Positions 20,743 to 57,058 of a stretch of DNA of 64,000 nt are shown piece after piece (within the stretch, counting starts at the first letter, position 1; each line of letters starts with the position of its first letter). Source of the stretch: Luteimonas terricola (lineage in GTDB: Bacteria; Pseudomonadota; Gammaproteobacteria; Xanthomonadales; Xanthomonadaceae); NCBI RefSeq assembly GCF_004352845.1, contig NZ_SJRX01000001.1:682001-746000 (forward strand), given 5' to 3'. The position numbers were made by a program, and so were the translations under genes. The notes under the pieces are model-generated. The model was not told the origin of the DNA. It was given only the letters and a program-made list of their open reading frames with translations, and did no database searches.

Positions 20743-21486
20743 TTACGGCATGTACATGCCGCCGTTCACGTGCAGGGTTTCACCGGTGATGTAGCCGGCA
20801 TCGGGTCCGGCCAGGAAAGCGACCGCCCGGGCGATGTCCTCCGGCTCTCCGAGGCGGCCCAGCGCGACCTGCGCGGTCAGTCCCGACTTGATGTCATCGG
20901 ACAGGTCGCGGGTCATGTCGGTGGCGATGAAGCCCGGCGCGACCACGTTGACGGTGACGCCCCGGCTGCCGATCTCCTTCGCCAGCGACTTGCTGAAGGC
21001 GATGACGCCAGCCTTGGCGGCGGCATAGTTGGCCTGGCCGGCATTGCCGGTCACGCCGATCACCGAGGCGATGTTGATGATGCGGCCGCGGCGCGCCTTC
21101 ATCATCCCGCGCATCACCGCCTTGCTGCTGCGGTAGACGCTGGTGAGGTTGGTGTCGAGGATGGCCTGCCAGTCCTCGTCCTTCATGCGCATCAGCAGGT
21201 TGTCGCGGGTGATGCCGGCGTTGTTGACCAGGATCGAGATCGCGCCGATGTCGTTGCCCACGGCGTCGATCAGCGCCTCGATCGCGCCGGCCGCGGTGAC
21301 GTCGAGCACGCGGCCGTGGCCGCCCTGCCCCGCCAGCCGCTCACCGATCGCCCGGGCACCGGCCTCGCTGGTCGCGGTACCGACCACCGTCGCGCCACGC
21401 GCGGCCAGTTCGTCGGCAATCGCCGCGCCAATGCCGCGGCTTGCGCCTGTCACCAGCGCGATCTCGCCTTTCAGTTCCTGGGTCAT
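20743..21486 (-). CDS. fabG: 3-oxoacyl-ACP reductase
   Basis: FabG reduces 3-oxoacyl-ACP with NADPH. The 247-residue SDR enzyme has the TGASRGIG nucleotide-binding motif near residue 14, NNAG near 88, the catalytic Ser-Tyr-Lys set (Ser in NIASVIG, Tyr and Lys in ANYAAAKAG), and the FIATDMTRDL and HVNGGMYMP segments near the end. It follows fabD after a 178-bp gap that is almost entirely one copy of the inverted-repeat element. Confidence 0.96.
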   Translation of the reverse strand: MTQELKGEIALVTGASRGIGAAIADELAARGATVVGTATSEAGARAIGERLAGQGGHGRVLDVTAAGAIEALIDAVGNDIGAISILVNNAGITRDNLLMRMKDEDWQAILDTNLTSVYRSSKAVMRGMMKARRGRIINIASVIGVTGNAGQANYAAAKAGVIAFSKSLAKEIGSRGVTVNVVAPGFIATDMTRDLSDDIKSGLTAQVALGRLGEPEDIARAVAFLAGPDAGYITGETLHVNGGMYMP

Positions 21487-21508
21487 ATGTCTTCGCCTGT
21501 GTCAGTTA

Positions 21509-21663
21509 GAGCTTTTTTGCCACGGATTTGCGCGGATTACACGGATCGGGCCGAGGCAAGATTGTCACCGCAAATCCTTCTGTGAAAAAAGCAGATGCGG
21601 AGCACGGTGTTCGGACTGGCCTCGCCCCGATCCGTGTAATCCGCGCAAATCCGTGGCTAAAAA
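21509..21663. mobile_element. MITE-like inverted-repeat element, copy 1 (fabG-fabD gap)
   Basis: Two 38-base arms (21513-21550 and 21626-21663) pair with one mismatch around a 75-base asymmetric core. The arms are built from a roughly 11-base unit, GCCACGGATT then RCGCGGATT then ACACGGATC. The core is recognisably the reverse complement of the core of the copy on the other side of fabD, so this is a defined element rather than a chance palindrome. It codes for no transposase and would need one supplied in trans. Transcribed, it would form a very long hairpin between fabD and fabG. Confidence 0.75.
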
Positions 21664-21664
21664 T

Positions 21665-22609
21665 TCAGCTTTTCCACTCTGCCAAGGCCGCATCGAAGTC
21701 AGCAGCGGTGCCGAGCGCGCGGGCTTCGAGGGATTTGTCGATGCGGCGGGCGAGGCCGGTGAGGACCTTGCCGGGGCCGCATTCGGCGATGCGGGTGACG
21801 CCGCGGGCGGCCAGGGCCTGGACGCAGTCGGTCCACTGCACCGGGAGGTAGAGCTGGCGCACCAGGGCGTCGCGGATGGCGTGGACGCCGTCGTGCACTT
21901 CGGCATCGACGTTCTGCACCACCGGCAGCGACGGCTCGCTCCAGGACAGGCCGGACATCGCTTCGGACAGGCGGTTGGCGGCTTCGCGCATCAGCGGCGT
22001 GTGCGAGGGCACGCTGACGGCCAGCTTCACCACCTTGCGCACGCCCTTGGCGGCCAGCAGCTCCAGGGCGCGGTCGACGGCGGCGGCGTGGCCGCCGATC
22101 ACCACCTGGCCGGGCGAGTTGAAGTTGGCCGGCACCACCACCTCGTCGCCCGATGCTTCGACACAGGTCTCGCGCACCAGCGCGTCCTCGGCGCCGATGA
22201 CCGCGGCCATGGCGCCGGTGCCGGCGGGCGCGGCGTCCTGCATCAGCTGGCCACGCAGGCGCACCAGGCGTGCGGCATCGGCCAGCGGCAGCGCGCCGGC
22301 GGCCACCAGCGCGGAGTACTCGCCAAGACTGTGGCCGGCAAGCACCGACGGCGCGGCACCGCCCGCGGCCTGCCATGCGCGCCACACGGCGACGCCTGCC
22401 GCCAGCAACGCAGGCTGGGTGTATTCGGTGCGGTTGAGCTGGCTGTCGTCGGCATCCTGCGACAGCGCCCAGAGATCGATGCCCGCGCCGTCCGAGGCTT
22501 CGGCGAACGCGTCACGCACCGCCGTACCGCGCGCGGCGAGGTCGGCCAGCATGCCCGCGGACTGCGAGCCTTGGCCTGGGAACACGAAAGCAAGCTGGGA
22601 TGCGATCAA
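21665..22609 (-). CDS. fabD: Malonyl-CoA:ACP transacylase
   Basis: FabD loads malonate on ACP for chain elongation. From the TTG at 22609 the product is 314 residues, the usual family length, beginning LIASQLAFVFPGQGSQ. It holds the active-site serine in AGHSLGEYSA (about residue 93), the catalytic histidine in VPSHTPLM (about 202), and the QNVDAEVHD region. No ATG fits: the first in-frame ATG upstream lies inside the neighbouring repeat element. The ribosome site before the TTG is poor (GGACCG). The gene is flanked by inverted copies of one MITE-like element and is cut off from fabH by a terminator hairpin, so it may be expressed separately. Confidence 0.93.
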   Translation of the reverse strand: MIASQLAFVFPGQGSQSAGMLADLAARGTAVRDAFAEASDGAGIDLWALSQDADDSQLNRTEYTQPALLAAGVAVWRAWQAAGGAAPSVLAGHSLGEYSALVAAGALPLADAARLVRLRGQLMQDAAPAGTGAMAAVIGAEDALVRETCVEASGDEVVVPANFNSPGQVVIGGHAAAVDRALELLAAKGVRKVVKLAVSVPSHTPLMREAANRLSEAMSGLSWSEPSLPVVQNVDAEVHDGVHAIRDALVRQLYLPVQWTDCVQALAARGVTRIAECGPGKVLTGLARRIDKSLEARALGTAADFDAALAEWKS

Positions 22610-22740
22610 GCGTACGGTCCAATTCAAAAAGCCGGAGGATGATAAGGGCGAACGCCCCGCTTCGTCTGTACCCGGCCGTATTGACCGGATCCGCGAACCC
22701 TGCCCTTGCCGCAGCTCAACGTGCTCTGGAGCGCTGCAAA

Positions 22741-22895
22741 GAGCCTTTGCCACGGATTAACGCGGATTACGCGGATCGGAACGAGGCCAGCCCGGATGCC
22801 ACGCCCTGCATCAGCTTTTTCCTGTAAGGATCTGCAATCACAACCTTGCCTCGGCCGGATCCGTGTAATCCGCGTAAATCCGTGGCAAAAAGCTC
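22741..22895. mobile_element. MITE-like inverted-repeat element, copy 2 (upstream of fabD)
   Basis: The element begins GAGC and ends GCTC. Its arms (about 22745-22779 and 22855-22891) carry the same CCACGGATT-CGCGGATT-CGGATC units as copy 1, with several mismatches between arms. The 75-base core aligns over its full length with the core of copy 1 when reverse-complemented, with a shared start CCGAGGCAAG and end CTGGCCTCG. The two copies thus face each other across fabD. Confidence 0.75.
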
Positions 22896-22910
22896 TTTCC
22901 AGCCACGCAG

Positions 22911-22964: not shown

Positions 22965-23957
22965 TCAGTAGCGCAGCAGCGCCGAGCCCCAGGTGAATCC
23001 ACCGCCGAAGGCTTCCAGCAGCAGCAGCTGGCCGCGCTGGACCTTGCCCGAGCGCACCGCTTCGTCGAGCGCCAGCGGCACCGAGCCCGACGAGGTGTTG
23101 CCGTGCCTGTCGACGGTGACGATCACGCGCTCCATCGGCATGTCCAGGCGCTTGGCCGTGGCCTCGATGATGCGCAGGTTGGCCTGGTGCGGGATCAGCC
23201 AGTCGATGTCGTGGCGGTCGACGCCATTGGCTTCGAGCGTCTCCTCGACGATGGCGTCGAGCGCACGCACCGCGTACTTGAACACGTCGCTGCCGGCCAT
23301 CTGGATGCGCACGCCGGCGTTCTTCTCGTTTTCCTTGAACCCGACCGACACCCCGACCGGGTTCCACAGCAGTTCCTTCTTGGCGCCGTCGGCGTGCAGG
23401 TGGGTGCTGAGGATGCCGGTCTCGGTGTCGGCCTTCAGCACCACCGCGCCTGCGCCGTCGCCGAACAACACGGCTGTGGTGCGCTCGCTCCAGTCGACCA
23501 TGCGGCTGAGCGTTTCCGAGCCGATCACGAGCGCGGTCTTCACCGAGCCCGAAACGATGAACTTCTCGGCCACGCTGAGCGCGTAGATGAAGCCCGAGCA
23601 CGCGGCATTGACGTCGAAGGCCGGGCAGCCGGCCACGCCCAGGCGCGCCTGCACCAGGCAGGCGGTGGACGGGAAAATGAGGTCCGGCGTCGTAGTGCCG
23701 ACGATGATCAGGTCGATCTCGGAGGCATCGGTGCCGGCGGCTTCCAACGCGCGCAGGGCGGCGTGGACGGCCAGGTCGCCCGTGGTCTCGCCCTCGGCGG
23801 CGATGTGGCGCTGGCGGATGCCGGTGCGCGAGGCGATCCACTCGTCCGACGTGTCGACGAACTTTGCCAGGTCGTCGTTGGTCAGGACCTTGGACGGCAG
23901 GTAGCTGCCTGTCCCTGCAATGCGCGCATAGATGCGCTGTGCGGCGGGCTCACTCAT
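22965..23957 (-). CDS. fabH: 3-oxoacyl-ACP synthase III
   Basis: FabH starts fatty acid synthesis by condensing acyl-CoA with malonyl-ACP. The 330-residue protein has the catalytic cysteine in [11 protein letters not shown] (about residue 119), the histidine in [10 protein letters not shown] and the asparagine in RHGNTSSGS. The start is the ATG giving [13 protein letters not shown], a few residues before the family core. It follows rpmF after 112 bp containing a palindrome but no plsX gene, which usually lies between the two in other gammaproteobacteria. A terminator follows it. Confidence 0.95.
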
Positions 23958-24041
23958 GTCAAGGACGGACCTCGCGTGTTGCTGGGCGCCGATCATGGCA
24001 CCGGCGGGCGCGCGGCGCACACGGCGCCACGGCCAGGGCAT

Positions 24042-56856: not shown

Positions 56857-57058
56857 GAGCATTTTTGCCACGGATTTACGCGGATTTACACGGATAGAGC
56901 AAACGCAAACGCAGGGAGAAAGCGGAAGCTTCCGTCCCGCCACGACCCATTCCCGCTCCTGCTTTATCCGCGTTCATCCGCGTAAATCCGTGGCAAAAAT
57001 GCCTTTGCTCCATCAGCGGAAATCCGCGGAAAATCCGTGTGGATCCGTGGCAAAGGCT
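56857..57058. mobile_element. MITE-like inverted-repeat element, copy 3 (composite)
   Basis: The arms at 56857-56895 and 56966-57000 carry the same GCCACGGATTTACGCGGAT units as the copies by fabD, but the core is different sequence and shorter (about 70 bases). A third, degenerate arm of the same type follows (about 57012-57054). It looks like an element that was rearranged or hit by a second insertion. It lies between convergent genes, where it should do little harm. Confidence 0.7.

Follow-up and report, generated by a model that had tools for sequence, protein, structure and literature searches.

In this study, two hairpin elements that flank the presumed fabD gene in a 64,000-nt stretch of the Luteimonas terricola genome (hereafter the window) were found to be gene-less members of a dispersed family that has one gene-bearing member in the same genome. 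The gene in that member encodes a protein of the GxxExxY family, which, in our assessment, is most likely, if by no means certainly, the agent that disseminates or maintains the hairpins. It is a good candidate for such a spreader or keeper because it shares its arms with the hairpins and because most of the related genes examined also lie between inverted repeats. This link between protein and hairpins is drawn from anatomy and co-occurrence in genome sequences. The features concerned are listed in Table 1. The gene enclosed by the two copies is presumably fabD, as an earlier note on this DNA had also named it; its neighbors are presumably fabG and fabH.

Table 1. Features of the hairpin family in the window and the gene-bearing unit elsewhere in the same genome (G000).
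Feature	Position	Strand	Remark
fabG	20743..21486	-	next to copy 1
Element copy 1	21508..21669	+	between fabD and fabG; A-type arms and core
Left arm of copy 1	21513..21560	+	48 nt
Core of copy 1	21561..21615	+	55 bases
Right arm of copy 1	21616..21663	-	48 nt
fabD	21665..22609	-	enclosed by copies 1 and 2; start not settled
Element copy 2	22740..22896	-	between fabH and fabD; orientation opposite to copy 1
Left arm of copy 2	22746..22790	+	45 nt
Core of copy 2	22791..22844	-	54 bases; aligns with core 1 when inverted
Right arm of copy 2	22845..22889	-	45 nt
fabH	22965..24041	-	next to copy 2
Third family member	56857..57056 (about)		B-type arms; extra right-hand arms
GxxExxY gene-bearing unit	G000:C10:587889-588379		outside the window; between family arms

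The earlier note had described two copies of one palindromic element in opposite orientation around fabD, and this description is confirmed by arms, cores and folding. The arms are complementary at 94% over 48 nt in copy 1 and at 87% over 45 nt in copy 2, and a 28-base motif of the arms has four matches in the window, with none expected from 100 shuffles. As the note had also stated, the cores align only with one of them reverse-complemented: in this orientation they are 69% identical with a score of 17, compared with 8 for the best of 2000 shuffles, whereas no direct-orientation alignment was found (score -9). Two of its figures had to be corrected, since the CGGAT units of the fabD copies are spaced at 10 and 9 bases rather than about 11, and the core measures about 55 bases rather than 75. 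Beyond the arms of both copies, a T or A run is followed by an AGAGC- or AAAGC-like end, and the fabD stop codon (21,665-21,667, minus strand) falls within the end of copy 1. In RNA folding, each copy alone forms one long hairpin (copy 1, -104 kcal/mol, z-score -14.3; copy 2, -92.6 kcal/mol, z-score -9.8), and therefore a hairpin spanning fabD is needed to explain nothing. A search of Rfam with the hairpin returned sub-threshold matches only, mostly to miRNA precursor models (mir-9243 at 41.5 bits, with 83 needed), which were taken as hairpin artefacts. As a side observation, positions 21,517-21,657 of the window match the mir-9243 and MIR4416 models below threshold, and bacterial contamination behind such families is a possible issue.

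The earlier note had proposed searching the genome for further copies and for GxxExxY or RAYT genes with the same flanking repeats. Both searches were informative. BLAST of the assembly carrying the window (G000, 3.04 Mb) with copy 1 gave 124 matches, which fall into 39 places when matches no more than 500 bases apart are grouped; moreover, a GxxExxY gene was found between the same arms, and no RAYT gene was found in this genome. Two arm classes are present in G000, namely A (as at fabD) and B. Among the 20 A-arm copies, a list compiled by hand that includes three with non-aligning cores, 10 are nested within B arms at both ends, five have B arms at one end and five are free. Left and right arms match better within a copy (0.914) than expected between copies (0.886; permutation p = 0.00005, 20 copies), and it therefore seems that the palindrome is renewed or kept rather than merely inherited; in some copies, a changed base in the left arm is paired with a complementary change in the right arm. 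The third element of the window (at about 56.9 kb) is also present at the orthologous place in G003, and none was found there in G036. Separately, G015 carries a further dispersed insert, some hundreds of bases long, whose letters are similar in L114 and in the G015 counterpart of window positions 56.77-57.15 kb.

In the G000 stretches examined, 42 arm pairs were picked up by a script; two of these are inner units of arms already counted (L043 and L051), and at least one copy was missed (C10:635921). Only two of the 42 pairs span at least 300 bases, the GxxExxY unit (491 bases) and L037 (368 bases). The latter (G000:C10:647737-648104) is the longest element that looks gene-less, and it has an 81-codon open run. 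For L035, L048 and L056, the arm scan gave right-hand arms only, and these are likely remnants. No target-site duplication was recognized in the orthologous comparison over the 64-kb window in G003, G018, G036 and G015 or in the flanks of the 42 arm pairs, where only an inverted AAGAGC-like end and a T run were seen. Element boundary and target duplication are not definable at the species level because the flanks are either too diverged or too uniform.

These data bear on the term MITE-like, which the earlier note had used. It holds in that the elements are short, dispersed and gene-less, occur in many copies and have inverted ends, and in that their ends recur on a gene-bearing unit; as no target-site duplication could be defined, we do not apply the term MITE in its strict sense. 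A conventional MITE, derived from a DDE insertion sequence whose transposase was lost from the genome, would also present terminal inverted repeats and many gene-less copies. We nevertheless regard this origin as very improbable, given that the unit with the same ends carries a gene matching PF13366 alone and no DDE transposase, that no target duplication was recognized, and that the arms vary with the GxxExxY allele.

Exactly one PF13366 gene was identified in G000. It encodes a 127-aa protein of the TIGR04256 family (129.8 bits with the family model, cut-off 35), in which the conserved G, E, Y, D and ExK residues of the GxxExxY family are present. The arms around this gene agree with the gene-less consensus at 40 of 42 and 36 of 42 bases. 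The copies at fabD are indeed gene-less, as the earlier note had said, but its statement that the mover is unknown can be narrowed to one candidate, GxxExxY. We also considered whether the gene-less cores are remnants of the GxxExxY gene; this was rejected, as their similarity to the gene is no better than that of shuffled sequence, and the gene-less copies are therefore not mere deletion products of that gene-bearing member.

The GxxExxY gene is located between liuC-like and liuD-like genes, presumably liuC and liuD. In G003, G018, G023 and G036, it occupies the same place and is again flanked by arms, which are of A type in G000 and G036, of B type in G003 and G018, and of a third kind in G023. 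The liuC-liuD spacers were examined in 30 of the 41 genus genomes; by eye, all that is left in the spacer of G015 is the right arm with the final codons of the gene, and in that of G007 an apparent end of an arm. From these spacers, the gene seems to have been at this site for long and to have disappeared from some lineages. The gene-bearing unit shows no movement in the genus because each of the five members that have it carries one copy, always at this site. In three other species, the same spacer is occupied by a DUF559 gene flanked by CCCTCCCC...GGGGAGGG arms; the loci are L126, L134, L137 and L118 (in G028, G034, G062 and G022, respectively), and a fourth gene appears truncated by eye.

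With respect to the protein, residues E34, D73, E83 and K85 (G000 numbering) are invariant in an alignment of 87 sequences (A2), from which four faulty loci and L204 were left out, the latter being apparently the same gene as L066 of the near set, whose contig has an equal length. The predicted structure (pLDDT 93.4) has a PD-(D/E)XK core fold with the conserved D and E-x-K, and by family, motif and predicted fold the protein would be a PD-(D/E)XK nuclease. The nearest solved structures to the model are SSO0001 (E = 2.4e-5), which is presumably Cas4-like, lambda-type exonucleases and, almost equal in size to the model, the Holliday junction resolvase Hjc (E = 0.002, TM 0.48 by target length). 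Cas4-like proteins, lambda-type exonucleases and Hjc act on DNA ends or branched DNA. Such a likeness, taken from a predicted model, would suit a partner of long palindromes and is a lead only. Sequence searches of solved structures gave nothing useful, PADLOC gave weak Cas4 matches (best E = 0.003), and PHROGs gave one weak match (E = 0.089) to a protein without assigned function.

The gene evolves faster than its neighbors. Among the 10 pairs of the five gene-bearing genomes, nucleotide identity is 66-80% for GxxExxY, compared with 81-91% for liuC and 84-94% for liuD, and GxxExxY is less conserved than both in 10 of 10 pairs. In the five pairs tested, the gene is under purifying selection (dN/dS 0.04-0.26, with dS near saturation). 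Its tree groups G000 with G036 (support 82/86), a grouping that is rejected by liuD (p = 0.0013) and not by liuC (p = 0.317); conversely, the liuD grouping is not rejected by the GxxExxY gene (p = 0.127). On these grounds we considered whether the gene had been exchanged horizontally together with its arms, and set this aside as suggestive only, the tree conflict not being significant (p = 0.127).

We then compared gene and repeats across the genus. All five of the genomes with a GxxExxY gene have at least six BLAST matches, compared with none of the 32 without it (37 genus members; these BLAST counts are lower bounds, about 13 candidates being scored per genome). The five gene-bearing genomes have at least 50, 44, 33, 10 and 6 matches; among the gene-free ones, G015 and G017 have at least two each, G028 at least one and the other 29 none. 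A pattern search less bound to the A type, carried out like the RAYT search in 41 genus members, whereas the gene and BLAST searches covered 37, gave 119, 114, 84, 47 and 6 matches in the five gene-bearing genomes, the lowest count belonging to G036. In the 32 gene-free genomes the median is 1, but G028 has 52 matches and no detectable PF13366 gene. The reversed control pattern had no match in any of the 41 genomes. By eye, 18 G028 loci have dissimilar centers and often imperfect arms, which fits old remnants, yet G028 stays an exception. At one of its loci (L229, contig C8, at about 12.2 kb), CGGAT-type arms enclose a CCCTCTCC-type hairpin pair, and from this arrangement one hairpin family seems to have entered another. 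It should be kept in mind that the co-occurrence of gene and repeats in the genus is not independent of descent.

RAYT was examined as a possible mover and rejected: PF01797 is absent from G000 and G036, both of which have elements. Matches to this family occur in 25 of the 41 genus members, including one each in the gene-bearing G003, G018 and G023. RAYT does not follow the elements.

The spacers around fabD were examined in 30 of the 41 genomes. Between fabH and fabD, the site of copy 2, an element is present in G000, another form of it in G003 and a scrap in G018, and no copy 2 was found in the corresponding spacers of G015 and G036. Between fabD and fabG, the site of copy 1, a palindrome is present in G000, G003, G018, G015, G036, G010 and G028, with differing arms, and none was found in, for example, G025, G029, G006 and G005. 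Because presence in the spacers differs between relatives, copies 1 and 2 represent separate events, probably of different age, and the view of the earlier note that they are two insertions rather than a local duplication is upheld. The same spacers allow another explanation to be weighed, in which the elements are host regulatory or transcript-processing hairpins (a terminator, an RNase III site or an RNA stabilizer) kept by selection in the fab operon, and GxxExxY is unrelated or secondarily attracted. This would agree with the very stable hairpins in the transcribed strand, with the better matching of arms within than between copies (p = 0.00005 for the 20 copies) and with the fabD-fabG palindrome being kept in G015, G010 and G028, all of which are without a GxxExxY gene. 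However, several of the 30 spacers examined have no palindrome, copy 2 is missing in G015 and G036, the family matches 39 places in the genome, and the class of the arm sequence at one site changes between species. Selection for a host function is thus, in our view, an improbable account of the family.

The association between GxxExxY genes and inverted arms extends beyond the genus. In 61 genomes of the genus and order (our own included), 12 GxxExxY genes were identified, 11 of which have inverted flanking arms with a score of at least 30; L067, with a score of 20, is the sole near locus below the threshold. For the broad set, we used the best 80 loci of a longer list from species genomes, labelled as 14 phyla and two unplaced; these loci lean to close relatives of the query because they were found via one peptide pattern and are the best 80 of the list. 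After three loci with flanks shorter than 120 bases were dropped, inverted flanking arms (score at least 30) were found in 62 of the 77 usable loci, and 15 were below the threshold. This score was reached by 8 of 599 control windows of the same geometry shifted along the loci, by 1 of 57 distal pairs and by 4% of 1540 pairings of flanks from different loci. In the 47 of these 62 arms in which a script found at least two units, the spacing is mostly 9 (43 cases) or 10 (23 cases) bases. The arms differ by lineage, and other families have other arm units, such as ACAGATGAAC, ACGCAAAG and CGCGAAGG.

Furthermore, the arm type at the gene tends to match the repeats elsewhere in the same genome. This was examined in 50 genomes drawn from the best 80 loci and picked by arm type, with the test classes set by script. 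Genomes with ACAGGAT arms at the gene have a median of 9 such repeats genome-wide versus 0 in those without (8 versus 42 genomes, p = 0.0008), and those with CRCGGAT arms a median of 54.5 versus 3 (6 versus 44 genomes, p = 0.001). At least five repeats without the corresponding arm at the fetched gene were observed in 7 of the 42 and 19 of the 44 genomes, respectively, and additional GxxExxY genes may be present in such genomes. In the 50 genomes, the reversed control pattern gave some matches, with single ones in G082 and G102 and with 1, 1, 1, 5 and 2 matches in G069, G071, G089, G094 and G112, respectively.

It could be argued that GxxExxY is a passenger, in which case another agent, such as a transposase or replication errors, would spread the palindromes, and their centers would be safe landing places for small selfish genes. 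Several observations could be read in this way, including the very different centers of the 18 G028 loci (by eye), the nesting in G000 (10 of the 20 A-arm copies with B arms on both sides and five on one side), the CCCTCTCC-type hairpin inside CGGAT-type arms at L229, and the DUF559 genes in the same liuC-liuD spacer of three other species. Nevertheless, only two of the 42 arm pairs of G000 span 300 bases or more (the 491-base GxxExxY unit and the 368-base L037 with its 81-codon open run), inverted arms recur in 62 of the 77 usable loci among the best 80 listed, and the arm type tends to match the repeats of the genome. We therefore consider it rather unlikely that GxxExxY is a mere passenger.

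An active role of GxxExxY could be pictured as follows. The long arms would form a cruciform, or a single-strand hairpin during replication; the GxxExxY PD-(D/E)XK nuclease would recognize the regularly spaced units and cut or trim the hairpin structure; and repair would then insert a copy of the hairpin elsewhere, in many cases at the center of an older one. What was observed in favor of this scheme are the shared arms, the association of gene and repeats in the genus and across phyla, the conserved catalytic motif, the predicted fold, the nesting and the within-copy matching of arms. The cutting, the binding specificity, the copying step and the choice of GxxExxY rather than another protein as the acting enzyme are what we infer from it. 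Against it speak the 52 pattern matches of the gene-free G028 and the low count of six in the gene-bearing G036, the loci below the arm threshold (15 of 77 and 1 of 12), the fixed single site of the gene in the genus, the target duplication looked for and not found, the lack of likeness between cores and gene, the non-significant tree conflict, the shared descent behind the co-occurrence in the genus, and the genomes with repeats of a type other than that of the arm at the gene.

Among known systems, the closest parallel is offered by RAYT genes and REP hairpins. As described by Nunvar 2010 (PMC2817692), RAYT genes always lie between two inverted repeats, co-evolve with them, evolve faster than their neighbors and correlate with repeat abundance, and Bertels and Rainey 2011 (PMC3116915) describe a single-copy gene and hairpin doublets. 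Similarly, the GxxExxY gene is flanked by two inverted repeat copies (11 of 12 near loci and 62 of 77 among the best 80 listed), is accompanied by many gene-less hairpins with which it co-varies, tracks repeat abundance (5 of 5 versus 0 of 32 genomes by BLAST, with G028 as the exception by pattern), is single-copy and evolves faster than liuC and liuD. In contrast, GxxExxY would be a PD-(D/E)XK nuclease and RAYT is a Y1 HUH enzyme (IS200/IS605-like), each arm of the present elements is a series of 9-10 base units, 40-50 bp long, instead of one short palindrome (in REPs, one with a GTAG or CGTC tag), and the hairpin elements here nest. Therefore, the present system works like RAYT/REPIN but is not a member of it because the enzyme is unrelated.

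Two other comparisons can be made. The intervening sequences of 23S rRNA are small elements with inverted ends and one gene, which encodes a four-helix-bundle protein, and the GxxExxY unit resembles them in having one gene and inverted ends; PF05635, the intervening-sequence protein, had no match in G000, but it also had none in 14 control genomes. In the DUF559 (PF04480) loci, inverted arms within the same spacer likewise enclose a single small gene, presumably nuclease-like. They differ in protein family and in arms, and comprise four loci, one of them apparently truncated. A literature search, outside of which most subscription papers lay, found no link of GxxExxY, PDDEXK or DUF559 to repeats, and in the literature found the GxxExxY family (TIGR04256/PF13366, PDDEXK_3) is mentioned only in passing.

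Taken further, GxxExxY could tentatively be viewed as a widespread bacterial class of mobile system, in which a stand-alone PD-(D/E)XK nuclease, unrelated to HUH, DDE, serine and tyrosine enzymes, would spread and renew hairpins of 9-10 base units. Such a class, which we put forward as possible rather than probable, would explain much of the interspersed repeat content of CGGAT, ACAGGAT and CGCAGAT type in many phyla, with DUF559 and its own arms as another example of the strategy. GxxExxY proteins are widespread, with no role found in print, and a concrete, testable role and a cognate DNA can now be proposed for them. The system also suggests a possible origin for interspersed hairpins in genomes without RAYT. 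Beside RAYT, it would be a second and independent example of a nuclease, present as one copy, that lives with a gene-less hairpin population, and it bears on how such gene-less populations persist.
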